Below, piece by piece: positions 5,156 to 63,743 of a stretch of 64,000 nucleotides of DNA. Origin of the DNA: Desulfuromonadaceae bacterium (GTDB taxonomy: Bacteria > Desulfobacterota > Desulfuromonadia > Geobacterales > Pseudopelobacteraceae). The notes beneath the pieces were generated by a model. That model was given only the letters and a program-made list of their open reading frames with translations, did not search any database and was not told the origin of the DNA. How positions within the stretch are numbered: position 1 is the first letter of the stretch; each line of letters begins with the position of its first letter. A program made the position numbers and the translations under genes. Location: positions 310,001 through 374,000 of the forward strand of contig JAQTZV010000001.1 in the NCBI GenBank assembly GCA_028687585.1, in the 5' to 3' direction.

Positions 5156-5172
5156 CGGAGGTTACCTGATTT

Positions 5173-6030: not shown

Positions 6031-6054
6031 TAACTCCAGCGCTGATATCCAAAG

Positions 6055-6085
6055 GACCTCAGAGGTTCCTAACGCCTCTGAGGTC
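6055..6085. repeat. Perfect inverted repeat after ccsA
   Basis: GACCTCAGAGG and CCTCTGAGGTC form an 11-bp stem with a 9-base loop. It lacks a U-run and lies just upstream of a proper terminator, so it may stabilise the 3' end of the resB-ccsA transcript. Confidence 0.6.
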
Positions 6086-6123
6086 TTGCCAAAATTCTGA
6101 TTTCAATCGGATAGTTTTACCAC

Positions 6124-6147
6124 ACCGGGCATGCCCGGTTTTTTTTG
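6124..6147 (+). terminator. Intrinsic terminator of the resB-ccsA operon
   Basis: ACCGGGC-AT-GCCCGGT is a compact GC-rich hairpin followed by a run of T residues (6139-6146). The next gene starts 13 bases later, so it must have its own promoter or depend on readthrough. Confidence 0.88.
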
Positions 6148-6159
6148 TGTAAGGCGCCC

Positions 6160-42643: not shown

Positions 42644-42666
42644 TTGGCAGCGTGAGGATAAAGAAT

Positions 42667-45447
42667 ATGGCCAAAGCACCAACCAAGATAGCTGTTGAAA
42701 CTCTCACCCACGATGAAGCAACTCGCAAGAATATTCCCACTGCCGAGCATCAGTCGCTTATGCACGATGCGGATAAAAGCCCGGTGCGAATTGCCTATGA
42801 GCGGCGTAACCGCGACCTGGACCCTCAATTAGTTTGGCGCGGCAAGGATGAACAGGACTGGTCCGATCTGGTGGTGCAGGCACCGCCGCTCTATATTCAG
42901 GAGAAGGTCCACCCCAAGGTGCTGATTGACGATCTTCTGTGCCGCAGCAAGGCTGAGGAAAAGGCGAACGAGGCACAGTTCGACCTGTTTGCTGACTTCA
43001 ATGGCCTTCCCAGCGAGAGCGCCAAGACCGAGTTTTACCAGCACGATGCTCACTGGGCTAACCGGATGATCCTGGGAGACAGCCTGCAGGTTATGGCGTC
43101 ACTGGCTGAACGAGAAGGGTTGCGCGGTAAGGTACAGAGCATATTTTTTGACCCTCCATATGGGATCAAGTTTAACTCAAATTTCCAATGGTCAACTACG
43201 GATAGGAGTTCTAAATCAGAAGGATCGGAATTCATCACACGAGAACCCGAACAAGTGAAGGCATTCCGTGACACTTGGCGTGATGGAATTCATTCGTATT
43301 TGACATACCTTCGTGACCGCATGACTGTCGCACGGGACCTCTTAAGTGACACTGGCTCGATGTTTGTTCAGATTGGAGATGAAAATGTCCACCGAGTTAG
43401 AGCTTTGATGGACGAAGTCTTCGGTGACGAGAATTTTATTGGCTTGATTTGGTTCCGCAAGAAAACCATGCCGTTAGGAGCTACATACCTTGAAAGAATG
43501 GGAGACTATGTAGTTTGGTTCGGAAAGAATAAGGAAAAAACTAAGTTTCGACGTTTATATAAGGATATGGAAGTTTCAGGGGATTTCCACTGGAATTGGC
43601 GTCAAATTGACGTTATTAATCGTCGGAAGTACTCCAAAAAAGAAATTGAAAACAACCCCTCTGGCGACCCTTTCCGGCTAGTATCTATGTGGCCACCATC
43701 TTTTAGTGCAAAGGATGTATATGACCTCCCATTTCACGGGAAAAAATGGCCGCCTGCACCTGGACAATGTTATCCCTCGGGGCAAGAAAAACTCGAAAGG
43801 ATTGCTAAAGCTGATCGTCTAGTAGTTGAAGGGAATTTTATTAGATACGTGATGAAGTTGTCGGACGATAACACAACAAAACTGAACCTAACTTGGACTG
43901 ACACAATCGGAGCCAGGGATCAGAACTATGTAGTTGAGACTAATGAACTTGTTGTTCAACGCTGCATTCTAATGACAACAGACCCTGGAGATCTGGTTCT
44001 TGACCCTACCTGCGGTTCTGGTACGACTGCATACGTTGCTGAACAGTGGGGCCGTCGCTGGATTACCATTGATACCTCTCGCGTTGCATTGGCTTTGGCC
44101 CGAGCCCGTATCATGGGTGCTCGCTACCCTTACTTTCTACTTGCCGATAGTCGTGATGGTCAAATCAAAGAAGCCGAAGTAACCCGCAGTATTCCATCAA
44201 GTCAGCCCACCCGTGGCGATATACGCCAGGGATTCGTATATGAACGGGTGCCGCACATCAGCCTTAAATCCATTGCCAACAATATTGAGATTGACGTCAT
44301 TTGGGAGAAGTACCAAGAGAAGCTGGAGCTATTGCTTCAACAGCTCAACCAAATATTGAGTAAGAAATGGGAAGAGTGGGAAGTCCCCAGTGACGCAGAC
44401 ATCAAGTGGTCGGAATCAGCAAGAAAACTACATGTCCAATGGTGGGAACAGAGAATTGCGCGACAGAAAGAGATTGATGACTCCGTTGCTGCTAAGGCTA
44501 AAGCTGATTCTGAAAACATCTACGATAAACCCTACCCAGACCCGAAAAAGCTTCGAGTGGCCGGGCCGTTTACGGTCGAGAGTTTGACGCCGCATCGGGT
44601 ATTGACAGTAGGGGCTGATGACGAACTGATCGACACAGTTGCAGAACAGCAGGACGGCTACGGTAAAGAACGAGACTTCGTCCAGATGATCCTGGAAAAC
44701 CTCAAGACCGCCGGGGTGCAGCAGGCGCACAAGGAAGATAAAATTACCTTTACTGCCCTCGTCCCCTGGCCGGGAGATCTGGTCTGCGCCGAAGGGCTCT
44801 ACGTGCGGAGCGACGACGGTTCAGGCAATGAAAAACGCGCTGCCATCTTCATCGGTCCCGAGTTCGGCACAGTCTCCCGTCCCGACCTGGTACAGGCTGC
44901 CCGCGAAGCCGGAGATGCTGGTTTTGACGTGCTCATTGCCTGCGCTTTCAACTACGACGCCCACTCGTCGGAGTTCGACAAACTCGGCCGCATTCCGGTG
45001 CTCAAGGCCCGCATGAATGCCGACCTGCACATGGCCGACGACCTCAAGAACACTGGTAAAGGCAATCTGTTTGTCATCTTCGGCGAGCCAGATATAGACA
45101 TCAGCAATGTCGCCGACGGCCAGATTCAGGTCAAGGTCAACGGCGTGGACGTCTTCCATCCCAACACCGGTGAAGTCCGCAGCGACGGCGCAGAAGGCAT
45201 TGCCTGCTGGTTCATCGATACCGACTACAACGAAGAAAGCTTCTTCGTCCGCCATGCCTACTTTCTGGGGGCTAACGACCCGTACAAGGCACTCAAGACC
45301 ACTCTCAAAGCTGAGATCAACGAAGATGCCTGGGCAACACTCAACAGCGATACTTCCCGGCCATTCGATAAGCCCAAGACCGGTCGTATCGCAGTGAAGG
45401 TCATCAATCACCTGGGAGATGAGGTGATGAAGGTGTTTCGGGTGTGA
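42667..45447 (+). CDS. Type III-like adenine/cytosine-N4 DNA methyltransferase (Mod), mosaic gene
   Basis: The protein has 926 residues from the ATG at 42667 (GAGGA upstream). The catalytic DPPY lies at about 162 (SIFFDPPYGIKFNSN) and the SAM-binding LDPTCGSGTTAYVAEQ at about 446; catalytic motif first is the beta-class order. The region between is the target-recognition domain. A C-terminal domain of about 350 residues exceeds a bare methyltransferase. Bases about 43140-44540 are visibly more AT-rich than both ends of the gene, as expected if the recognition domain was swapped by recombination. It protects host DNA and probably guides the restriction subunit. Confidence 0.88.
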   Translation: MAKAPTKIAVETLTHDEATRKNIPTAEHQSLMHDADKSPVRIAYERRNRDLDPQLVWRGKDEQDWSDLVVQAPPLYIQEKVHPKVLIDDLLCRSKAEEKANEAQFDLFADFNGLPSESAKTEFYQHDAHWANRMILGDSLQVMASLAEREGLRGKVQSIFFDPPYGIKFNSNFQWSTTDRSSKSEGSEFITREPEQVKAFRDTWRDGIHSYLTYLRDRMTVARDLLSDTGSMFVQIGDENVHRVRALMDEVFGDENFIGLIWFRKKTMPLGATYLERMGDYVVWFGKNKEKTKFRRLYKDMEVSGDFHWNWRQIDVINRRKYSKKEIENNPSGDPFRLVSMWPPSFSAKDVYDLPFHGKKWPPAPGQCYPSGQEKLERIAKADRLVVEGNFIRYVMKLSDDNTTKLNLTWTDTIGARDQNYVVETNELVVQRCILMTTDPGDLVLDPTCGSGTTAYVAEQWGRRWITIDTSRVALALARARIMGARYPYFLLADSRDGQIKEAEVTRSIPSSQPTRGDIRQGFVYERVPHISLKSIANNIEIDVIWEKYQEKLELLLQQLNQILSKKWEEWEVPSDADIKWSESARKLHVQWWEQRIARQKEIDDSVAAKAKADSENIYDKPYPDPKKLRVAGPFTVESLTPHRVLTVGADDELIDTVAEQQDGYGKERDFVQMILENLKTAGVQQAHKEDKITFTALVPWPGDLVCAEGLYVRSDDGSGNEKRAAIFIGPEFGTVSRPDLVQAAREAGDAGFDVLIACAFNYDAHSSEFDKLGRIPVLKARMNADLHMADDLKNTGKGNLFVIFGEPDIDISNVADGQIQVKVNGVDVFHPNTGEVRSDGAEGIACWFIDTDYNEESFFVRHAYFLGANDPYKALKTTLKAEINEDAWATLNSDTSRPFDKPKTGRIAVKVINHLGDEVMKVFRV

Positions 45448-47260: not shown

Positions 47261-47443
47261 CAGATAGAATTTTATCCGATAAATCGACAAATTCAAAATT
47301 AGAAATGCTGCGGTAATTGGGATCAATCATCTGGATGTTTAGATTATGAAGGTTTTCGGTTGTAGCTAAGTTCGGACGGATTGTAGTATCTGTTGAGATA
47401 AATACACCGAAGAAGGAATTACTTGATAGGGCAAGTGGATGTA

Positions 47444-48832
47444 ATGACTATTGATCTTTTCACACCCGTTGTGCCCGATGAAAATCAACATTCTAATTTC
47501 AGAGTTATTACAACACCTGGATTATATAGTCATGAAAGAGATGTGTTGGCTTCTTGGGCTGAAGGTTTTGTTGACCGTGATGGTAAAGCAGTTAAGGAGT
47601 TTCAAACCACTTTTAACTCAACGTTTTGGGAGTTGTATTTACATGCAGCGTTCCAAGACCTGGGCTTTTTAGCTGATTACAGTAAAGAGGCTCCTGATTT
47701 TATTCTTTCAAAAGATGGATACCAAATTATCGCAGAGGCCACTATAGCAAGTAATCCAGAAGGATATCCTGCAGAGTGGGAGCGTGATGTTACTAAAGAG
47801 GCCATTCAAAAGCTTGATGCTGAGGAAATTGTCGAATTAGCGGCAGTTAGACTAGCTAATGCTGTAGCAACCAAGCATAAAAAGTATGTGGAGTCATATT
47901 CAAAGTTGGATCATGTCAAGGGACTTCCATATGTGATCTGTGTAGCACCATTTGAACAGCCGTTTTTCTTTGAGCAAAGTGATAATGCAATCAGGCGGGT
48001 ATTGTATAGCTTCGACAGATATTTATTTAAGGACATGCCTGAAGAGCAAAAGCGAGTGATATTTGGAGAGGTATATTTTGACAGTTTTGTAAAATCAAGT
48101 GGCATTGAAATAGAGCTTGGATTCTTTAGGAATAATCGCATGAAGGAGGTAAGCGCTGTTATATTTAGCTGTTGTGCTACCTTCAGCAAGGTGCGTGCTC
48201 TTGCAAAAAATACTGATCAACAAGTTATCTTTATGGCAAAGAGACACAATGATCAGGGATTACAGCCTTTACTCATATGCCAAGAAAAAGCTGAATATAA
48301 GGAAACGCTTCTCGATGGGCTGATTCTTTTGTTAAATCCCTTTGCTGAAAGACCGTTCCCGCTTGATGCTTTCAGAGGTAGGGACATATCGATCCATTTC
48401 TTTGATCCAGATACTGAAGAATATCTTGTCGATTCTCCTCAGGGGTTTCTATTCCAGCGTTCATGCATAGGGTCATTCCCTCTTGATAAGGCTGATGAGC
48501 TAAAGCGCAGGGTCCCAAAAGGTAAACCAATGATACCTCACTCTGCTCCAGCATGGGTGGAGGGGGAATTGCACAAAGCTAGGGCTTCAATAGCGCATTT
48601 TCAGGAACATTATCTGGCTCATTTTATGGGATGGACCATATTGATCATTCTTGATCCCATTGATGATAATTGGGGTGCCCAAGCTATCTCTGCAAAAGTA
48701 AAAACTATTTCACGGTTTGAACAGTTTAATCGGGGTGGTAAGTTCATTCATTTAATGGCTGATGACTTCTATGCAACAAAAGAAATAGCACTGGAGGCCA
48801 TTCAGATGGAGATTTCACAATACATAACGTGA
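47444..48832 (+). CDS. Uncharacterised protein with PD-(D/E)XK-like N-terminus
   Basis: The protein has 462 residues from the ATG at 47444; a TTG seven codons upstream is possible. FWELYLHAAFQDLGF (about 61), APDFIL (about 83) and IIAEATIA (about 95) match the E...PD...ExK layout of nucleases, but the last catalytic lysine position reads Thr, so the site may be altered or inactive. The rest has no recognised domain. The gene is AT-rich like its upstream neighbour, with a 180-base gap before it that shows no other gene. Confidence 0.55.
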   Translation: MTIDLFTPVVPDENQHSNFRVITTPGLYSHERDVLASWAEGFVDRDGKAVKEFQTTFNSTFWELYLHAAFQDLGFLADYSKEAPDFILSKDGYQIIAEATIASNPEGYPAEWERDVTKEAIQKLDAEEIVELAAVRLANAVATKHKKYVESYSKLDHVKGLPYVICVAPFEQPFFFEQSDNAIRRVLYSFDRYLFKDMPEEQKRVIFGEVYFDSFVKSSGIEIELGFFRNNRMKEVSAVIFSCCATFSKVRALAKNTDQQVIFMAKRHNDQGLQPLLICQEKAEYKETLLDGLILLLNPFAERPFPLDAFRGRDISIHFFDPDTEEYLVDSPQGFLFQRSCIGSFPLDKADELKRRVPKGKPMIPHSAPAWVEGELHKARASIAHFQEHYLAHFMGWTILIILDPIDDNWGAQAISAKVKTISRFEQFNRGGKFIHLMADDFYATKEIALEAIQMEISQYIT

Positions 48833-50350: not shown

Positions 50351-52315
50351 ATGATTCTGGCGGACAATGAAACTAAAGTCGATCTGCTAAACAATGAAGC
50401 AATCGCGACCACGATTATTGGGTTACTTCGTGAGCGTCCAGATCACCCAGTTACTATAGGTGTGCATGGTGATTGGGGTGCAGGCAAGTCCAGCGTTTTA
50501 GAGATGATCGAAGAAGGGCTCTCCGGAAAGGATGAAGTCCTCTGCCTAAAATTCAATGGTTGGCGATTTCAAGGTTTTGAGGATGCCAAGATCGCACTGA
50601 TTGAGGGCATCGTCACGGGTCTTGTTGAGAAGCGCCCGACTTTGACGAAAGCAACAAGTTCAGTGAAAGAAATTTTTAAATGCATTGATTGGTTGAAGGT
50701 CGCTAAAAAGGCGGGCGGTTTGGCCCTGACTGCGTTTACAGGAGTACCGTCGCCAGAACTGATAAGCTGCATTGTGGGTACGCTGGAGGGGGTGCTCGGA
50801 AACCCAGGTCAACTTGCGACCAAGGAAAACCTAGTTTCCGCAATTGACGGCGTGAAGTCGATATTGAAACCGGCCGAAACCAAGAACGTGCCAGAAGAGG
50901 TTGAAGAGTTTCGAAAGGCATTCGACAAGCTGTTAACGGATGCTGGCGTTGATCAACTCGTTGTCCTTATTGATGACCTTGATCGTTGTTTGCCGGACAC
51001 AGCGATCGAAACACTCGAAGCCATACGTCTATTTGTCTTTACAGCACGTACCGCCTTTGTTGTGGCTGCCGACGAGCCAATGATCGAGTATGCCGTGCGA
51101 AAGCATTTCCCAGATTTACCTGATACTACGGGTCCGCGAGATTATGCTAGAAACTATCTGGAAAAACTGATCCAGATCCCATTTCGGATTCCGGCCCTAG
51201 GGGAAACTGAGACGCGAATCTACGTGACGCTTTTGCTGGCCGGGGCTGAAGTCGGAGAAGCTGACGAAGGTTTCAAAGAACTCATCAAGGAGGCGCGGTT
51301 GAAGTTGAAGCGTCCGTGGGAGAGCACGGCACTCGACGCGGCAACTATCAATAAGGCTCTAGGCAAAAATGCAGACAAGGTACATAACGCCCTTATGCTC
51401 AGTGACCAAATAGGTCCCATTCTCGCTAGCGGTGCTAAGGGAAATCCTCGACAGATAAAGCGCTTTCTCAACACATTATTGCTGCGTCAGAGAACTGCGG
51501 CTGTGCGTGGCTTTGGCGAAGAGATCAAAATTCCGGAACTTGCAAAACTGATGCTTGCCGAGCGATTTTTGCCGAGCCTATTTGATCAGATCGCAACCGT
51601 TGCTGTTACCCATCCACAAGGTCGTTGCATCGACTTGGCAGAGTTAGAGAAGATTGATAAGGCCGAGAGCCACACTGCGCCCAGCGCAGAAAAGAAGCTG
51701 AAAGCTTCAGACGGGAAAGAATTCAAGGCAGGAGAATCAGCAGCTACAGTTTCAGAAAGTGTCATTCTTTCCGAATGGAAAGCGTCGCAGTCCATTTTGG
51801 CTTGGTCACATGTGCCACCATCGTTAGGGGCGCTCGACCTCCGTCCTTATCTTTTTGCGACAAAGGATAAGAAAGATTACTTTGGGCCAGCTTCAGTTCT
51901 TGGGCATCTCTCCACGGTTGCCGAGAAGCTCTTCGGGCCAAAGATCTCCGTTCAATCGTTGGAATCGGAGTTGAAACAATTGGCTCAACCCGAGGCAGAG
52001 CAGTTGTTTGAGGCGATTCGAACAAAAATTATGAGCGGCGATACTTTTGACATCCAGCCCCCTGGGATTGATGGGATGGTTGTATTGGTTAAGGCGCAGC
52101 CAAGCCTACAAAGCAAATTGCTCGATTTTATTCATGCACTCCCGAGTGAAAGGTGTGGGCCATGGATAGTGGGCGGATGGCAAAGTGTGCTCAAGGATGC
52201 TGAAGTTGTCGTCCGCTTTAATCGGCTGCTCGACGGCTGGTCCAAGATCACGAACAGGCCGATGCTTAAAGCCGCAGCAGAGGCGGCGATCAAAACAGAG
52301 AAGAGAGTTCGATAG
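50351..52315 (+). CDS. qatA: QatA: KAP-family P-loop NTPase of the Qat anti-phage system
   Basis: This 654-residue protein has GGAG before the ATG. Walker A is GDWGAGKSS (about 40-48) and Walker B LVVLIDDLDRCLP (about 200-212), the extended form typical of KAP NTPases. A hydrophobic stretch follows Walker A, as in that family. Its stop overlaps the next start by one base. Identification is by the set: KAP NTPase, unknown, QueC-like and TatD-like proteins in this order are the QatABCD defence system described from systematic defence-island work. QatA is presumed to use ATP to sense or act on infection. Confidence 0.9.
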   Translation: MILADNETKVDLLNNEAIATTIIGLLRERPDHPVTIGVHGDWGAGKSSVLEMIEEGLSGKDEVLCLKFNGWRFQGFEDAKIALIEGIVTGLVEKRPTLTKATSSVKEIFKCIDWLKVAKKAGGLALTAFTGVPSPELISCIVGTLEGVLGNPGQLATKENLVSAIDGVKSILKPAETKNVPEEVEEFRKAFDKLLTDAGVDQLVVLIDDLDRCLPDTAIETLEAIRLFVFTARTAFVVAADEPMIEYAVRKHFPDLPDTTGPRDYARNYLEKLIQIPFRIPALGETETRIYVTLLLAGAEVGEADEGFKELIKEARLKLKRPWESTALDAATINKALGKNADKVHNALMLSDQIGPILASGAKGNPRQIKRFLNTLLLRQRTAAVRGFGEEIKIPELAKLMLAERFLPSLFDQIATVAVTHPQGRCIDLAELEKIDKAESHTAPSAEKKLKASDGKEFKAGESAATVSESVILSEWKASQSILAWSHVPPSLGALDLRPYLFATKDKKDYFGPASVLGHLSTVAEKLFGPKISVQSLESELKQLAQPEAEQLFEAIRTKIMSGDTFDIQPPGIDGMVVLVKAQPSLQSKLLDFIHALPSERCGPWIVGGWQSVLKDAEVVVRFNRLLDGWSKITNRPMLKAAAEAAIKTEKRVR

Positions 52316-53175
52316 TGGGAACTTCGTCTGCATACGGAGGGCCAGGCGGGAAGACACCTCTGGTGCCTTCTTGGCTGGGGCCCGACGGCGGTAGCCCTGG
52401 TCTGCCCGACGCACCCACCGGTGATACGCCAGCTCCAGCTCCTCCTGCCCCCCCTAATCGTCCAGCGATACCTGCTCTTGCTGATCCCAGTAGGTTCACG
52501 GGTGCTCGAAGCAACTTCACACGCTTTGCGCATTCTGGAGGCAGTGACCGAGTCAGCTTGGGTCGTGCAGTTTCGGGCTATGTTTCTACCTCCTCTGGTG
52601 GTGCTCGGCAGGCAGTACAGCGTATGGGGGCATCACGAGGGGCTGGGGCACGACTACTCGGGTTTTTGACGAATGTGCAAGCCCATGGCGTCAGAGAAGC
52701 CCTACGTTCGTTGAATCTAGAGGGGCTGGCTGGGCGTCCAATCGACGAAGTCTTTATCGGTCTGGCTGATTATATTTGTCCTAATGCGGGAACAGTTGAT
52801 GAAGGTATCGCCCGCGAGGCATTCGTCGAGACGATCATTGAGTTAGCCACGTTTGGAGTGACCGATCTGGACGCACTCACTCCCGACCAGATGCAAACGG
52901 TATTCGAGCTTTATGCAACCCATGCCATCGAAGCGAGGTTGTGCAACGATATAGGCACCAAACTCATTACTGTTCCGGCAAACGCGCAAGCTGCTCTTCG
53001 CGTTCAAGAGCAGTTGCGGGACTTCATTCGCAACGCGGTAAGTGATGCATTAACCGCTGCCCGCGCTGAGACTCCGACATTGCCACAGGATCGTGTCCAA
53101 TCGTTTGTTGATACGGTTTATGAGCGTGCTTTTGGCATTCTGCAGGCTCTTGGAGACGCGGAGGCTGACCAATGA
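52315..53175 (+). CDS. qatB: QatB: Qat system component of unknown function
   Basis: The 286 residues start at a GTG whose G is the last base of the qatA stop. The first 60 residues are Pro/Gly/Ser/Ala-rich and likely disordered; the rest is helical with conserved-looking acidic segments (IGLADYICPNAGTVDEGIAR). It overlaps qatC by four bases. The call rests mainly on its position between QatA and QatC and on size. Confidence 0.82.
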   Translation: MGTSSAYGGPGGKTPLVPSWLGPDGGSPGLPDAPTGDTPAPAPPAPPNRPAIPALADPSRFTGARSNFTRFAHSGGSDRVSLGRAVSGYVSTSSGGARQAVQRMGASRGAGARLLGFLTNVQAHGVREALRSLNLEGLAGRPIDEVFIGLADYICPNAGTVDEGIAREAFVETIIELATFGVTDLDALTPDQMQTVFELYATHAIEARLCNDIGTKLITVPANAQAALRVQEQLRDFIRNAVSDALTAARAETPTLPQDRVQSFVDTVYERAFGILQALGDAEADQ

Positions 53176-54536
53176 AGAGACACCTTATCGCTGGCCACTT
53201 TGGTCCAGGCGATCAAATTATCATCCCGAGTAATGACGACGAACAATTGACGAGGTTGGAGCTAGTCTCTGGCGAAAAGTCCCTCGACCATGGAATCAGC
53301 AGTGCGCTGACAGATCTCAACAGATTTGGAGTGTTCCCTTCGGAAATTGGTGTTGATTTACTTGTTGTTGCTGCCCATGTACATGCAGCCGATACTCGTA
53401 TCTCAAGAGCTGAACAATCGCAAGATTCATGGACGCGCGAGATAAGGTTGGTTGTTCCTGTCAGTGATCCCGACCTCTGGCAAGCAGCCGCTCGCACGCT
53501 GACTATCATATTAGATTTCTTAACTGGTGATCGTTGGACATTGGGATTCCGACGACGCCCTGAACGTTTCGTCAATATTACCACTCGCACTGCAACGCTA
53601 TTCCCGGCGCCCTTCGACGAAGTGAGCCTTTTTTCCGGTGGGTTGGACAGTTTAATTGGGGCCATTGACCTACTTGAAAGCGGACGCACGCCGCTTCTGA
53701 TAAGCCATGCCGGCGAAGGAGCTACAAGCGATGCTCAGAGTGAGTTATTTGGTAAATTGAAACAACATTACAAGGGTTCTTCTTTTGATCGTCTGCGGGT
53801 ATGGATGACATTTCCGAATGGACTGGTAAAAGGCGTCAATTCTGAGAATACGACCCGTGGCCGCTCATTCCTGTTCTTTGCTATTGGTGTTTTTGCGGCT
53901 TCAGGTATTGGCTCTAATTTCATTTTGCGCGTCCCGGAAAATGGACTGATAGCACTTAACGTCCCCTTGGACCCTTTGCGATTGGGCTCAAATAGTACGA
54001 GGACGACCCACCCGTTTTATATGTCGAGGTGGAATGAATTTCTTGGAGAGCTAGGGATCGACGGTCGTGTAGAGAACCCTTACTGGGACAAGACCAAAGG
54101 CGAGATGACCGGTGAATGCGCAAACGATCCTCTACTAAAGGCGCTTGTGGCTGACTCCTTGTCATGCTCATCTCCTTCCAAGGGTAGGTGGAAAGGCCAC
54201 GGGATTGAACACTGTGGTTACTGCCTCCCGTGTTTGATTCGTCGCGCAGCACTTGATTCGGCTTGGGGACCAGGTTCTGATGAAACCATCTACACTGTGC
54301 CTGATCTTAGAGCTCATCCTCTGGACACGCAGGAGTCAATTGGTAAGCAAGTACGCTCGTTTCAGGTTGCGATTGAGCGACTACGCAGAAAACCAGAATT
54401 AGCAAAGCTGCTTATTCACAAACCCGGCTCACTCTGTGACGAGATCACGAGGCTCAATCAGTTGGCCGATGTCTATATGCGTGGCCTCAACGAAGTTGCG
54501 CAGTTAATCCGCGATGTCGAAACTAGACCAAGCTGA
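53172..54536 (+). CDS. qatC: QatC: QueC-like protein of the Qat system
   Basis: This 454-residue protein carries the PP-loop ATP pyrophosphatase motif SGGLDS (155-160) and a C-terminal zinc-type cysteine set (C348, C351, C354, with C332 nearby), as in QueC 7-cyano-7-deazaguanine synthases. It is about twice the length of QueC, with an extra N-terminal domain. In defence systems QueC-like enzymes are thought to make or attach a deazaguanine-type group to a target. It overlaps qatD by 23 bases. Confidence 0.88.
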   Translation: MKRHLIAGHFGPGDQIIIPSNDDEQLTRLELVSGEKSLDHGISSALTDLNRFGVFPSEIGVDLLVVAAHVHAADTRISRAEQSQDSWTREIRLVVPVSDPDLWQAAARTLTIILDFLTGDRWTLGFRRRPERFVNITTRTATLFPAPFDEVSLFSGGLDSLIGAIDLLESGRTPLLISHAGEGATSDAQSELFGKLKQHYKGSSFDRLRVWMTFPNGLVKGVNSENTTRGRSFLFFAIGVFAASGIGSNFILRVPENGLIALNVPLDPLRLGSNSTRTTHPFYMSRWNEFLGELGIDGRVENPYWDKTKGEMTGECANDPLLKALVADSLSCSSPSKGRWKGHGIEHCGYCLPCLIRRAALDSAWGPGSDETIYTVPDLRAHPLDTQESIGKQVRSFQVAIERLRRKPELAKLLIHKPGSLCDEITRLNQLADVYMRGLNEVAQLIRDVETRPS

Positions 54537-55302
54537 TTTATCTGGTGAATACATGATCACAACAAATGGTTTGGTCGATTTTCACTGTCATCTAGATTTG
54601 TATCCCGACCATAAAGCGGCCGTTCTAGAGTCAGACACAGCGGGCGTCTATACTCTCGCTGTGACAACAACTCCAAGGGCATGGGCACGTAACCATGAAT
54701 TTGCACAGGCTACGCAACATGTACGTGCTGCGCTTGGACTACATCCTCAACTTGTCGCCGAGAGAGCAGGTGAAATCACTCTGTGGGAAGAACTTCTTGT
54801 TGAAACTCGATATGTCGGTGAGGTGGGATTAGATGCAGGTCCACGCTTCTATAAGTCATTTGATCTACAAAAACAAATCTTTGAGCGTGTGTTACGCTGC
54901 TGTGCCGCTGCTGGTGACAAAGTCATTTCTGTGCATAGTATTCGGGCTGCTAAAGTAGTTTTGGATCTCATAGAGGCACATCTACCTCCGAGTCAAGGGA
55001 AGGTAGTGCTTCACTGGTTTACTGGTACTAAAGCAGAAGCGCAGCGGGCTGTAGATATGGGATGTTATTTTTCGATCAACGCTATGATGCTTGAAAATGC
55101 TCGTCATGCATCAATGGTCACTGCTATTCCTTTTGAGAGACTTCTAACAGAAACAGATGGTCCGTTTACAAAGGTTGCTGATCGACCTTCCAAACCAGCT
55201 GACGTCGCTTTTGTCGTTGAAGCATTGGGACGATTACTGAATCTGCCACAGAAAATTACCAGTGAAAAAATTCAAACAAATTTACGCTGCTTACTTGCTT
55301 GA
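54514..55302 (+). CDS. qatD: QatD: TatD-like metal-dependent hydrolase of the Qat system
   Basis: The 262 residues have TatD-family metal ligands: DFHCHLDLY near residue 22, GLHPQL and GEVGLD in the middle, ISVHSIRA, and LLTETDGPF near the end. An alternative start at 54553 would avoid the overlap with qatC. TatD proteins are 3'-5' exonucleases or deoxyribonucleases. The gene is more AT-rich than qatABC. It completes the four-gene system. Confidence 0.88.
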   Translation: MSKLDQADLSGEYMITTNGLVDFHCHLDLYPDHKAAVLESDTAGVYTLAVTTTPRAWARNHEFAQATQHVRAALGLHPQLVAERAGEITLWEELLVETRYVGEVGLDAGPRFYKSFDLQKQIFERVLRCCAAAGDKVISVHSIRAAKVVLDLIEAHLPPSQGKVVLHWFTGTKAEAQRAVDMGCYFSINAMMLENARHASMVTAIPFERLLTETDGPFTKVADRPSKPADVAFVVEALGRLLNLPQKITSEKIQTNLRCLLA

Positions 55303-55421: not shown

Positions 55422-57494
55422 TTGGAATTCCGCATAGCTGACACATTTACCGACAGCCTCGCCAAACTGACCGGCGAAGAACAGAAGGCCGTGAAAACCA
55501 CAGCCTTTGATCTGCAATTGAACCCGTCCAATCCCGGCATGAGCTTACATAAGCTCGACAAGGCTAGGGACAAGAACTTCTGGTCGGTGCGTGTCAGCAG
55601 CGACTTGAGGCTTATCGTACATAAGAGTAGTGACAGCCTGCTACTGTGCTATGTGGATCACCACGATCCTGCTTACCAATGGGCGGTGCGGCGTAAACTG
55701 GAGGTTCACCCCAAGACCGGCGCGGCCCAGTTGGTGGAGATTCGTGAAACAGTGCAGGAAATCACCATCCCTAGGTATGTGGAAGCGCCACAACCGGTCC
55801 AGCTCAAACTGCCATTATTTGCAGATGTCTCCGAAAGTGTTCTACTAGGTTATGGCGTGCCGGAAGAGTGGTTGGCTGATGTACGACTGGTAAATGAAGA
55901 CACACTTTTAATTCTGGCAGAGCATCTTCCCGGTGAGGCTGCCGAGGCATTGCTGGATTTAGCCACAGGTATCACTCCGCAACTTCCACAACCAGTGGCT
56001 GTTGGCAGTGGTCCCTTCGATCATCCTGATGCCCAGCGTCGTTTCCGGGTAATGAACAACGTGGAAGAGCTGGAACGTGCTCTCGATTTTCCTTGGGAGA
56101 AGTGGACGGTTTTTCTCCATCCTGCTCAGCGACAACTGGTGGAGCGGGACTATAGCGGCCCTGCGCGGGTTTCAGGTTCAGCAGGTACGGGCAAGACAAT
56201 CGTTGCCCTGCATCGGGCAGTTTTTCTGACGCGCTCCAATCCGAATGCCCGCGTACTGCTCACCACCTTTTCCGATACCCTGGCAAATGCCCTGCGCACA
56301 AAAATGCGGCGACTGCTCAGCAATGAACCTCGTCTGGGTGAGCGACTGGAAGTGCATGCCATGAACGCGATTGGCCAGCGCCTCTATGAGTTGAATTTTG
56401 GCCGCCCACAGATTGTCTCCCGGGAAGAGCTGCAGCGGCTTCTTGCCGAGGCTGCCGGTAGCGCCGAAAGACATAAATTCAGCCTGCGCTTTTTACTTGC
56501 CGAATGGGAACAGATCGTTGATGCGTGGCAGCTCGACAGCTGGGATGCGTATCGCGATGTTGCCAGACTGGGGCGCAAAACCAGGCTACAGGAACAGCAA
56601 CGGCTGCTGCTCTGGTCGATCTTCGAGCAGGTTCGGGCCAAACTGAAATCCACTAACCTGATCACTCATGCCGACATGTTCAGCCGGTTGGCAACCCGTT
56701 TTGCTGAGAGCAAGAATCCTCCCTTCGACTTCTGCGTAGTGGACGAGGCCCAGGATATTAACGTTGCCCAGTTACGCTTCCTGGCTGCATTAGGTGTCAA
56801 ACGCCCCAACTGCCTCTTCTTTGCCGGTGATCTCGGCCAGCGGATATTCCAGCAGCCCTTTTCCTGGAAGGCGCTTGGCGTGGAAGTGCGCGGTCGTGCC
56901 CGGACCTTGCGGATCAATTACCGAACCTCACACCAGATCAGGATGCAGGCTGATCGACTGTTGGGGCCTGATATAGCGGACGTTGATGGCAATACGGAAG
57001 AACGACGCGGTACAACATCGGTCTTCAACGGCCCGCCACCAACCGTCGAAGCGTTGCATACGCCAGAAGATGAAATCGAAGCTGTCGGCAAATGGCTTGC
57101 CGACCGAACAATCGAAGGGATACAGCCGCACGAAATTGGCGTATTCGTGCGCTCCGTAGCGGAACTGGACCGAGCAAGCGCTGCCGTGGAAAAAGCCGGG
57201 CTGGTTGGTAAGGTGCTTGATGAACACGTTGAAACAGCCGTCGGTCAGGTATCTATAAGCACCATGCACCTTGCCAAGGGTCTGGAGTTCCGTGTTGTCG
57301 TGGTGATGGCCTGCGATGATGAAGTCATACCGCTTCAGGAACGTATCGAAACAGTCGTTGACGATGCCGATCTGCAGGAGGTTTACGATACCGAACGTCA
57401 CCTGCTGTATGTCGCCTGCACCCGTGCTCGGGATCATCTGCTGGTGACCAGTGGGGATGTGCCGTCGGAGTTCTTGGATGATTTGAGGATTTGA
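55422..57494 (+). CDS. Fusion of a RelE/ParE-like domain to a UvrD-type superfamily 1 helicase
   Basis: The protein has 690 residues, starting at a TTG with GGAAC nearby. Residues 1-95 look like a RelE/ParE fold toxin (FWSVRVSSDLRLIVHK, YVDHHDPAYQWA). A linker leads to an SF1 helicase with Walker A GSAGTGKTIVALHR (about 250), FCVVDEAQDINVAQLRFL, INYRTSHQIR and the late LYVACTRARDHLLV motif. The helicase is short for UvrD, with no RecB-type nuclease seen. It is the first of three closely spaced large genes. The toxin-like part may bind the ribosome or DNA, or regulate the helicase; that is open. Confidence 0.85.
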   Translation: MEFRIADTFTDSLAKLTGEEQKAVKTTAFDLQLNPSNPGMSLHKLDKARDKNFWSVRVSSDLRLIVHKSSDSLLLCYVDHHDPAYQWAVRRKLEVHPKTGAAQLVEIRETVQEITIPRYVEAPQPVQLKLPLFADVSESVLLGYGVPEEWLADVRLVNEDTLLILAEHLPGEAAEALLDLATGITPQLPQPVAVGSGPFDHPDAQRRFRVMNNVEELERALDFPWEKWTVFLHPAQRQLVERDYSGPARVSGSAGTGKTIVALHRAVFLTRSNPNARVLLTTFSDTLANALRTKMRRLLSNEPRLGERLEVHAMNAIGQRLYELNFGRPQIVSREELQRLLAEAAGSAERHKFSLRFLLAEWEQIVDAWQLDSWDAYRDVARLGRKTRLQEQQRLLLWSIFEQVRAKLKSTNLITHADMFSRLATRFAESKNPPFDFCVVDEAQDINVAQLRFLAALGVKRPNCLFFAGDLGQRIFQQPFSWKALGVEVRGRARTLRINYRTSHQIRMQADRLLGPDIADVDGNTEERRGTTSVFNGPPPTVEALHTPEDEIEAVGKWLADRTIEGIQPHEIGVFVRSVAELDRASAAVEKAGLVGKVLDEHVETAVGQVSISTMHLAKGLEFRVVVVMACDDEVIPLQERIETVVDDADLQEVYDTERHLLYVACTRARDHLLVTSGDVPSEFLDDLRI

Positions 57495-57530
57495 GTACTT
57501 CCGATTATTGAAGTTGAGTTAAGGAACATA

Positions 57531-60500
57531 ATGAATCCAGGTCAACGAGTAAGACTTAAAAGCGACCCCGGAAGGGTCGGAAGCTTAACCGGAAAATCGC
57601 GGGAGCGTGCTGGAACGATCTGGTGGCAAATAGGTTTCTCCGATGGAGTTTCCTACCAACCAGAGTACGAGATTGAACTGATCGCCGACGACAATAGTGA
57701 CCCGTACACGTTGTTGGCTGAAGGCCGTTTTGGGAGAGTTACTGACCTGCGCCGCAATCTTTCCCACATTCAGCTCAGTGGTCGTCTGGCGAATATGGTT
57801 TACAGCATGGACACCACGAACACGGACTTCTACGCTTACCAATACAAACCCGTTCTCTCTTTTCTTGATTCTCCCTCAAATGGTCTTTTGATTGCTGATG
57901 AGGTTGGTTTGGGTAAAACCATCGAGGCCGGCCTGATCTGGACGGAACTCCGCAGTCGTTATGACGCGCGTCGGCTAGTGGTGCTCTGCCCGGCCATGCT
58001 CCGCGAGAAATGGCAGTCGGAACTTTGGGACCGTTTTGGCGTGGAAGCAACCATAATGGATGCCGAAGAAGTGTTGTTGGAATTACGAAAAAATCGAAAT
58101 GAAATCCCGGATGGTAAAGCAATAATTTGCAGCCTACAGGGGATTCGACCACCCAAGAACTGGGAGGATGAGGAAGAGGGGGGCAGAAATCCCCGGCGAG
58201 ACTTAGCCATGTTTCTTCAGGACCAGTCTGAAATCGATCCGATTATCGACCTGGTAATCATTGATGAAGCACATTACCTGCGTAATCCAGAAAGCCAGAC
58301 GGCCCGCCTGGGCCAGCTTCTTCGGGCGGTTACCGAACACATAGTCCTCCTCTCGGCTACGCCGATCAACCTAAGAGACGACGACCTTTACCACCTACTT
58401 AATCTGGTTGATCCGGACACTTTTGATGTGAAAGAGGTTTTTCCTCAGGTGTTGAAGGCCAACGAGCCTTTAATCAAGGCACGGCAAGCAGCTTTGAATA
58501 TGCAGGCAAAAGAGGACGATATCAAAACCCATCTGAATCATGCCGTCACTCATCACCTGCTTGCGAATAACCTGCAACTTGCTGAACTGCTCAAGACATC
58601 ATTTTCTGCTGAGATGCTTGCCAGTCGGGCTAAGCGGGTGAGCCTCGCTAATCGTATTGAGAGAATAAACCTGCTCCGTCATGCTGTTTCAAGGACACGT
58701 AAAGTTGAAGTGACAGAGTGGCGGGTGGTTCGTCTTCCGTACTCAGAATTTGTTGATTTGAGTGAAGTTGAATCGCATTTCTACCACACGGTTACCCAGC
58801 AAATCCGAAGCTACGCCCAACGGGCTGATATTAGCGAAGGGTTTCTCCTTGCCAGCCCCCAGCGGCAGGTATCAAGCTGTATGTATGCAGCAGCAAAGGC
58901 TTGGACGGAGAAGATGGACAACTGGTCTGAGCTTGTTTACGAAGATCTAGGCGTAGATACTGATAATTCCAAAGTATTTGCGCCACTCATTGCCCACCTT
59001 ACGAAAAATGTTTTGCCTGATGTCGATTTAGAGGCACTTCGAAGGCACGACACCAAGTACGAACGGTTTCGTGCCGTTATTCAGAACTATCTGAACAAAC
59101 ATCCAGGGGAAAAGATTGTAGTATTTTCCTTCTTCCGAGGGACTCTTGCTTACCTGTACGATCGTTTAGCAGAGGACGGAACCAAGGCGCAGGTACTAGT
59201 TGGTGGCATAAGAGAAACCAAGCAACAGGTCATTGACCGCTTCCGCGACGACTCCACAATTAAGGTTCTTCTTTCTTCAGAGGTGGCAAGTGAGGGTGTT
59301 GACCTGCAATTCAGCAGTGTACTTGTAAACTACGACCTCCCTTGGAATCCTATGCGCGTAGAGCAGCGGATCGGACGTATCGATCGTATTGGGCAGGGCT
59401 CTCCCACCATCAGCATTTGGAATCTTGGTTACAAAGACACTATCGACGAACGTATTTATGTGCGGCTCTTCGAGCGATTGAAGATTTTTGAACGCGCCCT
59501 GGGCAGCATGGAAGCAATCTTGGGAGAGATAATAACCGAGTTGACTACGGACCTTCTGCGCAAGGATTTAACTCCTGACCAAGAAACTGCCCGAATTGAC
59601 CAGACAGCGCTGGCGATTGAAAAAATTCGTCAGGATCAGGATGAGCTGGAGAGGCAGGCATCGAATCTTATTGCTCATGGTGGTTTTATCCTGGAGGCGG
59701 TAAAAGCAGCGCATGATTTCAAAAAGCGCATTACCGAACAGGATCTGGTCATTTATGTCAGCGATTACCTCTTCAAGTATTGTCATGGATTCCAGTTCCA
59801 ACAAGTTGCTACTGACCAGTTACTGTTTGAAATTCAACTTCCGCGCACCACAGCTGCTGAATTTGACGAATTTATCCGTCGCAGACGACTGTTTGGCCAG
59901 ACGCGACTTACTTCAGGGGAGACGATCCGATGTCATTTTGTCAATAAGATCGCTAAAGGCCGCCCAAAAGTTGAGCAGATTAGCCAGTTCCATCCCCTGA
60001 TTCGTTTTATCAGCCAGGATTTGCAGGATCGTAACGAGGCTTTTTACCCACTTGTGGCGGTTTCTCTCCAGCGCCACTATGCCAGTGAAATGCCAGTCGG
60101 TCAGTATGCATTTGCGGTGAACCGCTGGAGTTTCGATGGCTTGAGAGTGGAAGAAGAATTGCGTTCGCGGGTCTGCAGGCTGGGTGGCAAGCAGATTATG
60201 GATTCTGATCAATCTTGGACTCTTGTCAACACGGTTCGGGTGGAAGGCAATGATTGGCTATCAGTTAACAATGAAGCTAACATGAATTCGCTTGAAGAAA
60301 CTTTGGAGAATTGTTTGACCTGCCTAGAGAAGGATTATTTACAGGTGAAGCATGAACGGGAAATGGAAAACCAGGACCGGGTGAACTTTCAGGTGCTTTC
60401 GGCGACGCGACATCGAGATCGTCAACTGCGAACGACCCGTGAGGTCCTCGCCAAATACCGAGAGAGTGGTAGAACCAAGATGATTGCTCCTTTGGAAGGA

Positions 60501-60614
60501 CGTATCAAAAAGCTGGAAGAGCGTTTTGCTGTCCAAGTTGAGCGTCTGCAAAGAAAAGCTCAGTTGAGCAGCTCACAAACTGAAGTCTGCTTGGGAGTGA
60601 TTGCTGTTATTTAA
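57531..60614 (+). CDS. SNF2/RapA-like superfamily 2 helicase
   Basis: The 1027 residues begin with an SH3-like or chromo-like segment (MNPGQRVRLKSDPGRVGSL, about 1-50). The SNF2 ATPase core has Walker A ADEVGLGKTIEAGLIW (about 122-137), DEAH (VIIDEAHYLRN, about 243) and the C-terminal helicase motifs VLLSSEVASEGVDLQFSSVL and EQRIGRIDRIGQGSP. It ends in a long helical tail with coiled segments. It resembles DISARM DrmD in general plan, but no other DISARM gene is here. It starts 36 bases after the RelE-UvrD gene and ends 18 before the Hsp70-like gene. Confidence 0.86.
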   Translation: MNPGQRVRLKSDPGRVGSLTGKSRERAGTIWWQIGFSDGVSYQPEYEIELIADDNSDPYTLLAEGRFGRVTDLRRNLSHIQLSGRLANMVYSMDTTNTDFYAYQYKPVLSFLDSPSNGLLIADEVGLGKTIEAGLIWTELRSRYDARRLVVLCPAMLREKWQSELWDRFGVEATIMDAEEVLLELRKNRNEIPDGKAIICSLQGIRPPKNWEDEEEGGRNPRRDLAMFLQDQSEIDPIIDLVIIDEAHYLRNPESQTARLGQLLRAVTEHIVLLSATPINLRDDDLYHLLNLVDPDTFDVKEVFPQVLKANEPLIKARQAALNMQAKEDDIKTHLNHAVTHHLLANNLQLAELLKTSFSAEMLASRAKRVSLANRIERINLLRHAVSRTRKVEVTEWRVVRLPYSEFVDLSEVESHFYHTVTQQIRSYAQRADISEGFLLASPQRQVSSCMYAAAKAWTEKMDNWSELVYEDLGVDTDNSKVFAPLIAHLTKNVLPDVDLEALRRHDTKYERFRAVIQNYLNKHPGEKIVVFSFFRGTLAYLYDRLAEDGTKAQVLVGGIRETKQQVIDRFRDDSTIKVLLSSEVASEGVDLQFSSVLVNYDLPWNPMRVEQRIGRIDRIGQGSPTISIWNLGYKDTIDERIYVRLFERLKIFERALGSMEAILGEIITELTTDLLRKDLTPDQETARIDQTALAIEKIRQDQDELERQASNLIAHGGFILEAVKAAHDFKKRITEQDLVIYVSDYLFKYCHGFQFQQVATDQLLFEIQLPRTTAAEFDEFIRRRRLFGQTRLTSGETIRCHFVNKIAKGRPKVEQISQFHPLIRFISQDLQDRNEAFYPLVAVSLQRHYASEMPVGQYAFAVNRWSFDGLRVEEELRSRVCRLGGKQIMDSDQSWTLVNTVRVEGNDWLSVNNEANMNSLEETLENCLTCLEKDYLQVKHEREMENQDRVNFQVLSATRHRDRQLRTTREVLAKYRESGRTKMIAPLEGRIKKLEERFAVQVERLQRKAQLSSSQTEVCLGVIAVI

Positions 60615-60632
60615 CTTGGCTGGGGGGATCGC

Positions 60633-62150
60633 ATGTCTTGGCTTGATGCCATTCGTAGGCTGCTTGGGATTAGGGGTACAGAAAAAGTATCACCTAAACC
60701 TGCGTCATCAGCGTCAGCGGAGAAAGAGAGACTGGTCGAAGCGCCAGCAACTCGACCCCCTGTAAAACCGGCTCCTGCCCGCCGTTCAGCTGGGAATGGG
60801 AAACAATCATCACCCCTTACCGGGGATATGACGCAATTCCCCTCAATAAATTCCTCTTCACCGAAGCTGCTGCTGAATATCGGTCTAGATTTCGGTACAG
60901 CATTTGCCAAGGTAGTCATTGGTGAGACTCGTACCAGCTATGCAGTACCTTTTGACCTCCAAATGTCCGGGAACCCGTACCTACTTCCATGTGTAGTCTA
61001 TATTGACGATTCCGGCAGGTGCTCACTGCAACCGCAGAGTGATGTGTGTGAAGCTGTCACCGATATGAAGATGAAATTATTGGACGGAACTGCAACACAT
61101 CAGGACTTGGTAAGTATGGTTGCATTTATCGCGCTAATACTTCGACACACTCGCTTGTGGCTGTTAGAAAATAAAAGCGCTACCTATGAGGGACATTATC
61201 TCGACTGGTATATCAATGTCGGTGTTCCAACAGATTCTTACCATCATGAAGAACTGGTTGAAACCTATCACAAAGTCGTTATGGCTGCATGGGCTCTCAG
61301 TGTTGTCCCTGACCCGGTTCAAATTGATGTCGCCGACGAATTGTTGTCATATGGTGCGAAAGGGGGGAACGTACTTCCTGATCATTATGCAGGTCAGCGT
61401 CAAAGAATGATTCACCCGGAGGCTCTTGGTCTATTTCCGGAGTTTGTCGCGCAGGTTGTGGGATATGTTAGATCCCCTTTACGGAAATCTGATCTTCACA
61501 TGATAGTCGATGTTGGAGCCGGCACTGTCGATATTTCAATATTCAATGTCCATGTATCTGATGGTGATGATCTCTTTCCCATATTTGCGAAGGCTGTCAA
61601 GCCGCTTGGAACTAATTACCTCATGAAACATCGGAATAACAAATTGCCAGCTGGTGCGAATATCATATGGTCATTGCAAGAGAGAACACCATCCCAGTCC
61701 GAGCTGTTACAGGTGTTGAAGATCCCTATGAAACAATTAAACGAGATTGACAACGATTTCACGAAACAGATCGGCACTACTGTCCGGGAGTTGCTAAAGT
61801 ATACCAAGGAGAGCCGCTATCCAGGTTCTCGCCGATGGCAGGAAGGCGTTCCTACATTCCTGTGTGGTGGGGGTGGAAAGGTGGAGGTGTATTCAGAAAT
61901 AATTGGCAGATTCGAGAACGGCAATCATGCGTATAAAATCCGAGTCGAAAGACTACCTAAACCTCAACGCCTAACAGCACCTCAGTTACCTGATAACAGC
62001 TATGACCGATTGTCGGTAGCTTATGGCCTTTCCTATAATGCATTCGATATCGGTCAAATAATTCAGGCAAGTGAGATTGAAGATGTTCGACCATCTCTCA
62101 GAAATCCTGATTCTTTCACGCAAAATTATGTCGGCAAGGAACAAGTCTAA
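60633..62150 (+). CDS. Hsp70/actin-fold ATPase with disordered N-terminal region
   Basis: The 505 residues comprise a short amphipathic start (MSWLDAIRRLLGI), a Pro/Ala/Ser-rich linker to about residue 78, then an actin-fold ATPase. Phosphate-1 is IGLDFGTAFAKVVIGE (about 83-98), phosphate-2 is IVDVGAGTVDISIFN (about 290-304), and the adenosine loop is LCGGGGKVE (about 409). There is no Hsp70 substrate-binding domain. It is tightly linked to the SNF2 helicase. It could be a sensor or polymer-forming ATPase; its partner role is unknown. Confidence 0.75.
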   Translation: MSWLDAIRRLLGIRGTEKVSPKPASSASAEKERLVEAPATRPPVKPAPARRSAGNGKQSSPLTGDMTQFPSINSSSPKLLLNIGLDFGTAFAKVVIGETRTSYAVPFDLQMSGNPYLLPCVVYIDDSGRCSLQPQSDVCEAVTDMKMKLLDGTATHQDLVSMVAFIALILRHTRLWLLENKSATYEGHYLDWYINVGVPTDSYHHEELVETYHKVVMAAWALSVVPDPVQIDVADELLSYGAKGGNVLPDHYAGQRQRMIHPEALGLFPEFVAQVVGYVRSPLRKSDLHMIVDVGAGTVDISIFNVHVSDGDDLFPIFAKAVKPLGTNYLMKHRNNKLPAGANIIWSLQERTPSQSELLQVLKIPMKQLNEIDNDFTKQIGTTVRELLKYTKESRYPGSRRWQEGVPTFLCGGGGKVEVYSEIIGRFENGNHAYKIRVERLPKPQRLTAPQLPDNSYDRLSVAYGLSYNAFDIGQIIQASEIEDVRPSLRNPDSFTQNYVGKEQV

Positions 62151-62446: not shown

Positions 62447-62722
62447 ATGACCAAAATTGATATCGTTGAGCGTGTTTATGAAAAAGTCGGTATCCAGAAA
62501 TACGAAGCGGCAGAGATATTGGAATCAGTCTTGGAGATAATGAAGGAGACTCTGGAAAAGGGAGAAGGCATCAAGGTTTCAGGTTTCGGCAATTTTGTCG
62601 TCAAATCAAAGAATGATCGCAGAGGCAGGAACCCTCAAACCGGCGAGGCAATCACGATTACCAGCCGTCGTGTTCTTACCTTCAAACCGAGCAATCTCCT
62701 GAAGCAATCCATTAATAGGTAA
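62447..62722 (+). CDS. Integration host factor alpha-like DNA-bending protein
   Basis: This 91-residue protein has AAGGAG before the ATG. It is a full HU/IHF fold: TKIDIVERVYEKVGI at the start, FGNFVVKSKNDRRGRNPQTG in the DNA-binding arm (with the RNPQTG motif) and RRVLTFKPSNLLKQSINR at the end. The arm and length favour IHF-alpha over HU. An element-borne copy may serve recombination, origin function or transfer gene control. Confidence 0.9.
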   Translation: MTKIDIVERVYEKVGIQKYEAAEILESVLEIMKETLEKGEGIKVSGFGNFVVKSKNDRRGRNPQTGEAITITSRRVLTFKPSNLLKQSINR

Positions 62723-63059: not shown

Positions 63060-63743
63060 TCAAGATATTTCCAGATACACTTGCCCTTGTTCCCGCTCAA
63101 CGGTTACCGACTGCCGCTCAGGGTAACAACGATACGTCAGGTAACAATGATTCCTGGGGTTGCTGAGAATGGAGGGGGCAAACGACGCCAGGTTGGTCCC
63201 CTTGCATCGTGCAGAAGGCACCAAAAGTCCCGGATGACCCTCGTTATGGAGCCGCTCGCCTATCTGGTGCGTGAGGCTGTAATCGTTTGAGACCAAGTCG
63301 GCGAACTGCTTCTCTTTACCTCTCAAGTCAATCAGGACAGCCCGGCAATGAACCTGATAAACGGCACGTTCACGGATGATGGGGCCTTTCGATCCTTCCA
63401 CCCGCAGTTCTTCCTGAATCATATGGTACGCCGTTTCATGGATTGTGGTTTCCAGTTCCAGTGAACCATACCAGACGCCAAACGCTCCATTCCCATACCG
63501 GCTGGACAAATAGGGGTCAGTCTCAAAGGGGTAACCGATCGCGGTGGTATAATGAAAACCCCGCTTGATTAGTCCGGTCGGGATTTCGGACTTGACCCGC
63601 ATCTCTGCAGTAATGGCCACTTCGCTCGAATATTCATCATCGTCAGTCAAGTCAGAAAATAGATCTACTGACTCGCGCAATGATACTATGTTACGGAAAA
63701 GGTCATCGTTAAAATCGCAGGTTTTATCGAACATGCTTGGCAT
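63060..63743 (-). CDS. RES-domain toxin
   Basis: The 227 residues carry the RES catalytic pattern: Tyr/Arg-containing GFHYTTAIGYPF and SSRYGNGAFGVWYGS, the glutamate in LELETTIHETAY, and the serine in LLVPSARCKG. RES toxins degrade NAD+ with an ADP-ribosyltransferase-like fold. The gene starts 6 bases after the stop of the antitoxin, matching the usual antitoxin-toxin order. Confidence 0.88.
   Translation of the reverse strand: MPSMFDKTCDFNDDLFRNIVSLRESVDLFSDLTDDDEYSSEVAITAEMRVKSEIPTGLIKRGFHYTTAIGYPFETDPYLSSRYGNGAFGVWYGSLELETTIHETAYHMIQEELRVEGSKGPIIRERAVYQVHCRAVLIDLRGKEKQFADLVSNDYSLTHQIGERLHNEGHPGLLVPSARCKGTNLASFAPSILSNPRNHCYLTYRCYPERQSVTVEREQGQVYLEIS

Follow-up and report, generated by a model that had tools for sequence, protein, structure and literature searches.

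An SNF2 ATPase gene and an Hsp70-type ATPase gene that recur side by side in bacterial genomes, repeatedly near defence genes

Three genes beside QatABCD

The window analysed here is a stretch of 64,000 nucleotides from a Desulfuromonadaceae bacterium (contig JAQTZV010000001.1, positions 310,001 to 374,000), and our subject is a run of three genes within it, named A, B and C, directly 3′ of the defence system QatABCD. All three lie on the plus strand, with spacers of 36 bases (A/B) and 18 bases (B/C). Domain and PADLOC matches bear out the gene identities, the spacers and the upstream QatABCD as given in the initial annotation, which had read the trio as one joint candidate system, different from the named ones. 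We found that B and C belong together at most of the loci where C occurs and that A usually does not accompany them. The reading we favour, with moderate confidence, is that B and C make up an anti-phage module of two genes, spread horizontally, in which C would control B, with A as a separate gene.

55422..57494, plus strand: gene A, a RelE-like domain fused to a UvrD/GajB-type superfamily 1 (SF1) helicase, an ArmD-like architecture (PMC12458937)
55422..55736, plus strand: RelE-superfamily domain of A, residues 1–105
57531..60614, plus strand: gene B, a DrmD/RapA-related SNF2 ATPase, core gene of the pair
58464..58658, plus strand: B-specific insertion, residues 312–376, within the SNF2 core, from alignment with other SNF2 proteins
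60633..62150, plus strand: gene C, an Hsp70/DnaK-type nucleotide-binding domain without a substrate-binding domain, core gene of the pair
60864..62075, plus strand: Hsp70-type nucleotide-binding fold of C, residues 78–481
50351..55302, plus strand: QatABCD, a known defence system directly 5′ of A (context only)

Linkage and joint divergence of B and C

We searched for C with conserved-motif patterns, built from an alignment of 40 of the 120 listed C relatives, over one genome per species (84,980 species). The resulting 74 loci, designated by L numbers, are a sample and not a census, and they are not all independent, as L008 and L009 are near-identical. B immediately precedes C in the same orientation in 68 of the 74, from several phyla. 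It is in pieces at L003, L015, L025 and L047, and at L036, where tblastn finds no B, a hidden Markov model (HMM) of B recovers its end upstream of C. At three further loci (L010, L048 and L069) no B is seen, and C begins no more than about 150 bases from a contig end. The 64 gaps measured between B and C, with start codons not chosen, run from −28 to +62 bases, save for L002 (−86), L024 (−89) and L056 (−361). At L071, L073, L074 and L075 C was too weak for the tblastn count, and its position comes from the motif scan.

The pair also occurs on plasmids. Five plasmid records match C-type queries; four were examined, a second Sphingobium record being left out, and B adjoins C in all four regions (HMM scores of 992–1126 bits for B and 182–258 bits for C). 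HamA and restriction genes are among the neighbours of the pair on pAA03, and on pSF1 the C gene shares four bases with an SNF2-related gene. The order is reversed on a Leptolyngbya plasmid (L120), with C followed by B at a distance of 98 bases; the nearest annotated genes to this reversed pair are cas2 and a transposase gene.

The two proteins diverge together. Pairwise distances of B and of C across 59 loci and the window gave a Mantel r of 0.938, the best of 2000 permutations reaching 0.13, a result that fits joint inheritance. An indirect sign of linkage comes from the listed clusters: for 43 of the 120 C clusters, the window's included, the longest contig has the same size as that of a listed B cluster (119 of the 120 B rows entered). 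The distribution of the pair is patchy: of 58 relatives one has C, and of 277 genomes of the class one has B (E up to 1e-100), and both times it is the window's own genome. We take this pattern, as part of the favoured reading and with equal confidence, to suggest horizontal spread. A B-like match occurs in 5 of 369 gammaproteobacterial genomes, with at most two candidates scored per genome. Megablast found no near match to a Pseudomonas B–C segment in 20,395 Escherichia coli records.

Both proteins retain the residues expected of ATPases. In 64 aligned B proteins the Walker A lysine, the DE of the DEAH box and the motif VI arginines are identical, and the DEAH histidine is kept in 61. C is identical in 66 aligned proteins at D86, G88, K93, K146, D293, G295, T298, D300 and G412–G414, which takes in Lys146 and the motifs for phosphate and adenosine. 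Judged from these motifs, B and C should both hydrolyse ATP. The fold of C is DnaK-like, with Hsp70 nearest among solved structures, and its nucleotide-binding domain carries the conserved ATPase residues of Hsp70 chaperones. It has no Hsp70 substrate-binding domain: the match ends at about residue 481–486 of 505, and the roughly 20 residues beyond it have low model confidence.

Some relatives of C end in a DnaJ-type zinc finger (CxxCxGxG), for example those of L002, L003, L004, L006, L010, L012 and L013, joining an Hsp70 domain to an Hsp40-like element. Such an end was found in 16 of 40 near relatives (Pfam, E up to 0.1) and, by a strict pattern, in 7 of 72 C proteins. The window's C has a short NYVGKEQV tail in its place, and we therefore kept the zinc finger out of the mechanism proposed below. 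C was also considered as PDC-M61B and rejected, since the match covers only 26 residues round one phosphate-binding motif and the model also matches 5 of 14 control genomes. One of the 120 listed C relatives (P0035) is labelled PF27659.1 in the protein database; no match of that type appeared among 40 C members with the Pfam copy used, and a recent Pfam family may touch C.

The nearest solved relative of B is RapA (E 2.5e-31), which recycles RNA polymerase. This kinship is what would favour a mobile regulator of transcription or replication, present in defence islands by chance. We consider such a role highly improbable: B scores 158 bits against the RapA equivalog model NF003426, whose cut-off of 576 it does not reach, and the distribution of the pair is patchy, with repeated defence neighbours.

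Defence systems that share parts with the locus

B is hidden in databases because the PADLOC model PDLC02623, which covers window B over its whole length at 972 bits, is labelled DrmD. This model matches six B proteins at 847–1937 bits and the true DrmD proteins of L006 and L043 at only 140 and 183 bits. The DrmD equivalog model NF038317 behaves in the opposite way, giving those DrmD proteins 1041 and 1401 bits and the B proteins of the same two loci 407 and 634. Window B scores 423.5 bits, under the cut-off of 610, and is not a DrmD equivalog by this measure; two B proteins of a DISARM-linked subgroup just exceed the cut-off (632 and 634). When 80 SNF2 proteins were placed in a tree (quick method, midpoint root, SH-aLRT support), two label changes were required to account for the 65 B rows, and the single very long branch of L004 caused one of these. 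The SNF2 proteins of DrmD-like and ArmA-like type from the B–C loci fall outside B. On the NF038317 score, the tree branch and the coexistence of B with true DrmD at L006 and L043, both of the loci tested, we rejected B as DrmD. A further PADLOC model, PDLC02572, is labelled DrmA but hits window B at 164 bits and the SNF2 DrmD of L043 over its full length at 2056 bits; it is probably mislabelled and itself an SNF2/DrmD model.

B and DISARM DrmD share a full-length SNF2 architecture but lie on different branches, and no second C-like gene was seen beside the DrmD of L006 or L043 in the stretches examined. DISARM class 1 encodes DrmA, DrmB, DrmC and DrmMI together with DrmD, as described in passages of PMC9252829. 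Among the 20 window proteins scanned with PADLOC (between 20198 and 63743, not every open reading frame (ORF)), none of these four genes was found, the sole such label being the PDLC02572 match of B, and a DrmA query, run without a positive control, had no match in the window's whole genome. Hma consists of a helicase, a methylase and an ATPase; its HmaA matches B at 197 bits, far under the score of PDLC02623, and C matches none of the Hma models at E up to 0.001.

Known defence systems recur around B and C elsewhere. We took flanks of up to 10 kilobases (kb) on each side of C at the 74 loci, often cut short, and all neighbour counts apply to these flanks. PADLOC served to identify the neighbour seeds and tblastn to count them, the loci of the seeds among those counted; the tally covered DISARM, ARMADA-like and PDC-S68 genes, with 'ARMADA-like' denoting gene content and not position in a tree. 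DISARM genes occur at 12 loci (L006, L026, L032, L035, L038, L042, L043, L044, L049, L050, L055 and L057), an ARMADA-like methylase or YprA at eight (L019, L020, L025, L029, L047, L053, L054 and L060; ten with the weak cases L003 and L052) and PDC-S68 at four (L008, L009, L041 and L046). At six DISARM loci (L026, L032, L038, L044, L049 and L050) the pair sits between DrmMI and DrmA, and at L043 and L055 it is placed before a second SNF2 gene and DrmMI. Together with QatABCD next door in the window, these recurrent neighbours support the defence-island setting implied by the initial annotation.

The PDC-S68 proteins near the pair are about 1250 residues long and have RecD-like matches too. At L049 a 626-residue protein (4503–6380) that matches type II restriction enzymes and SpbK-like proteins lies between DrmMI and B, and it has relatives at L032, L038 and L044.

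The insertion of the pair between DISARM genes at six of 12 loci, and the eight loci with ARMADA-like genes, could also mean that B and C are strictly an accessory of methylase–helicase systems, without activity of their own and left in the window as a stranded remnant. We regard this as unlikely. Neither DISARM nor ARMADA-like genes are found at 54 of the 74 loci, within flanks of at most 10 kb that are often cut, and the annotation of pSF1 and of the Leptolyngbya plasmid shows none of them within about 8 kb of the pair. The window's genome has no match to the DrmA or ArmB-like queries (no positive control), yet both genes of the pair are intact there and keep every ATPase motif.

Gene A is a different matter. 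Its N-terminal domain has a RelE fold, with R63 and H81 invariant in 31 aligned rows, two of which are the same protein. In a weak match (E 0.9) these residues align with R65 and H83 of YoeB, which we take to be catalytic; any RNase activity of A is putative. A shows the fusion of a RelE-like domain with a GajB-like UvrD helicase that marks ArmD of ARMADA type II, a type of protein already named (PMC12458937). Its sequence identity with the ArmD-type proteins at L020, L025 and L054 is 33–36%.

A-type genes were found by tblastn in the flanks of six of the 74 B–C loci (L020, L021, L025, L030, L046 and L054), or eight if the weaker UvrD-like cluster members at L062 and L068 are included. Only those of L030 and L046 are orthologues of A (64%); both are the next gene after C, one on the opposite strand from the other. 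Seven of 369 gammaproteobacterial genomes carry an A orthologue (E up to 1e-200). One of these, in the genome of L046, lies beside B and C, and the other six have neither gene in 5 to 9 kb on each side. Ten neighbours were scanned at these six loci. Five of the loci yielded one or more PADLOC matches (Lamassu LmuB and PDC-S05; PDC-M68B; IetS and a type III methylase; NERD-UvrD; a type III methylase), and the single protein scanned at the sixth gave none. All 120 A clusters listed are of full length, with identities of 75% or more; the threshold of the A search was passed by 7999 proteins, not all of them necessarily RelE fusions.

Upstream of A orthologues we noted extra partial copies of the RelE domain (L100, 3760–3840; L101, 4702–4914; L102, 13309–13560), with other genes intervening; they may be a recombination footprint.

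The counts of A-type genes bear on the possibility that the three genes make up one system, related to ARMADA type II but reduced, with A in the place of ArmD, B in that of ArmA and C in that of the methylase/YprA pair; the RelE domain would be an RNase effector released on sensing. Several arrangements fit it and weigh against a clean separation of A. The RelE–UvrD gene lies upstream of B in the window, and at L025 and L020 the first large gene before B is of ArmD type and follows a YprA-like gene; it adjoins B directly at L025, and at L020 a small ORF of 122 residues lies between them. An A orthologue comes next after C at L046 and L030, and equal-sized longest contigs in two cases besides the window, 14600 (A and C) and 16966 (A, B and C), suggest that A is near C in the closest relatives. 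Moreover, protection in E. coli needed all four ARMADA genes, according to passages of PMC12458937. Against it stand the rarity of A-type genes near the pair, with an orthologue at two loci, and the six of seven A orthologues located elsewhere, order and strand also varying. We accordingly dropped the trio as our main interpretation and hold it to be quite unlikely; A is probably a separate, known type of defence gene that neighbours the core pair. The survey of co-occurrence that the initial annotation had proposed therefore upheld the adjacency of B and C, and for A gave the rare adjacency that the annotation had named as refuting a trio.

The wider comparison with ARMADA is mixed. ArmA, an SNF2 protein resembling RapA and BrxHII (PMC12458937), bears a distant likeness to B, but no ArmB- or YprA-type gene stands directly beside A, B and C. 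An ArmB-like query (ArmB being a PglX-like methyltransferase) had no match in the genome, without a positive control, and the window methylase at 42652–45447 matches type III models. The PADLOC window scans gave no YprA-type calls (Dru, DrmA proper), DrmA being the sole YprA-type query run on the genome. Hsp70, DrmD and DnaK are not mentioned in the main text of the ARMADA paper (PMC12458937).

A proposed role for the pair

The titles, abstracts and passages of open-licence literature that we searched do not name a pair of SNF2 and Hsp70-like genes, and B and C look undescribed as a two-gene module. A likeness is found in eukaryotes, where actin-related proteins (Arps) regulate SNF2 motors, as Arp7/9 does the RSC motor Sth1 (PMC5969521, in part). 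In both settings an actin-superfamily subunit is paired with an SNF2 motor; C, however, is nearest to Hsp70 among solved structures, and the likeness is probably convergent. An Hsp70-like ATPase in a bacterial defence setting is also known from CoCoNuT, whose CnuD is described in passages of PMC11090510 as having nucleotide- and substrate-binding domains, being thought a very poor ATPase and lying in operons with McrB/McrC homologues. C differs from CnuD in having the nucleotide-binding domain only, invariant motifs and an adjacent SNF2 gene.

We propose that the pair, which occurs on its own as well as within or alongside larger systems (DISARM class 1, ARMADA-like and others), would work on phage DNA. 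B, a Swi2/Snf2 motor like DrmD, RapA and BrxHII, would travel along double-stranded DNA, remodelling the complexes that phage DNA forms with proteins. C would bind B, with its nucleotide state coupled to engagement or release of B, and would thus act like the actin-fold subunit of an SNF2 motor and not as a protein folder; the lack of a substrate-binding domain favours such a nucleotide switch over chaperoning. BrxHII and RapA have a degenerate nuclease fold after the helicase (PMC12839542, in part). Domain and PADLOC scans of the window proteins recognised no nuclease domain in B or C; the pair would accordingly be expected to remodel or stall, or else to pass a substrate to a neighbouring nuclease or methylase. 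A candidate contact with C, inferred from alignment, is the insertion of B at residues 312–376, which is mostly gaps in 11 other SNF2 proteins (of 15 comparators, four with long branches were left out). The C-terminal coil of B was rejected as a C-binding site because it is not specific to B and also aligns in other SNF2 proteins.

Several observations weigh against this proposal and the module it presumes. Joint divergence is not proof of contact, and the insertion is poorly conserved among B proteins (mean 0.39). L011, where about 720 bases before C give no B match by HMM, and L070, where a C fragment at a contig end has no B upstream, may be true exceptions to the pairing. Of the five gammaproteobacterial B-like proteins, two are accompanied by C, two lack it downstream and the fifth is truncated by a contig end; in the tree the three without a visible C form a separate SNF2 branch. 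Because loci were located through C by motif patterns, B without C is undersampled and its share is poorly measured. No DISARM, ARMADA-like or PDC-S68 gene is present at 50 of the 74 loci (48 with the weak cases), in flanks that are partly short, and C was not found in viral contigs or phage records.

If the proposal is correct, a hidden two-gene module would be set apart from DISARM annotation, one branch of SNF2 defence proteins would gain a defined partner, and the control of an SNF2 motor by an Hsp70/actin-fold ATPase would have a simple bacterial setting. It would also predict an extra functional layer in some DISARM and ARMADA operons. A bolder version is possible but doubtful: B and C as a self-sufficient defence machine with C as the regulatory subunit of B, a prokaryotic counterpart of SNF2–Arp remodellers that serves as an interchangeable part of DISARM, ARMADA and other systems and is hidden by the labels DrmD and hypothetical.

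Further genes of the window surround the locus. The protein encoded at 47423–48832, 5′ of QatABCD, matches the defence gene PD-T7-5 in PADLOC at 356 bits. The type III methyltransferase at 42652–45447 scores 1328 bits and is preceded by a 1017-residue gene without a PADLOC match (together 39590–45447); akin methylases also lie near A orthologues at L103 and L105. On the 3′ side of C, an IHF-alpha/HU-like gene (62447–62722) is followed by a RES-domain protein encoded on the opposite strand (63060–63743).

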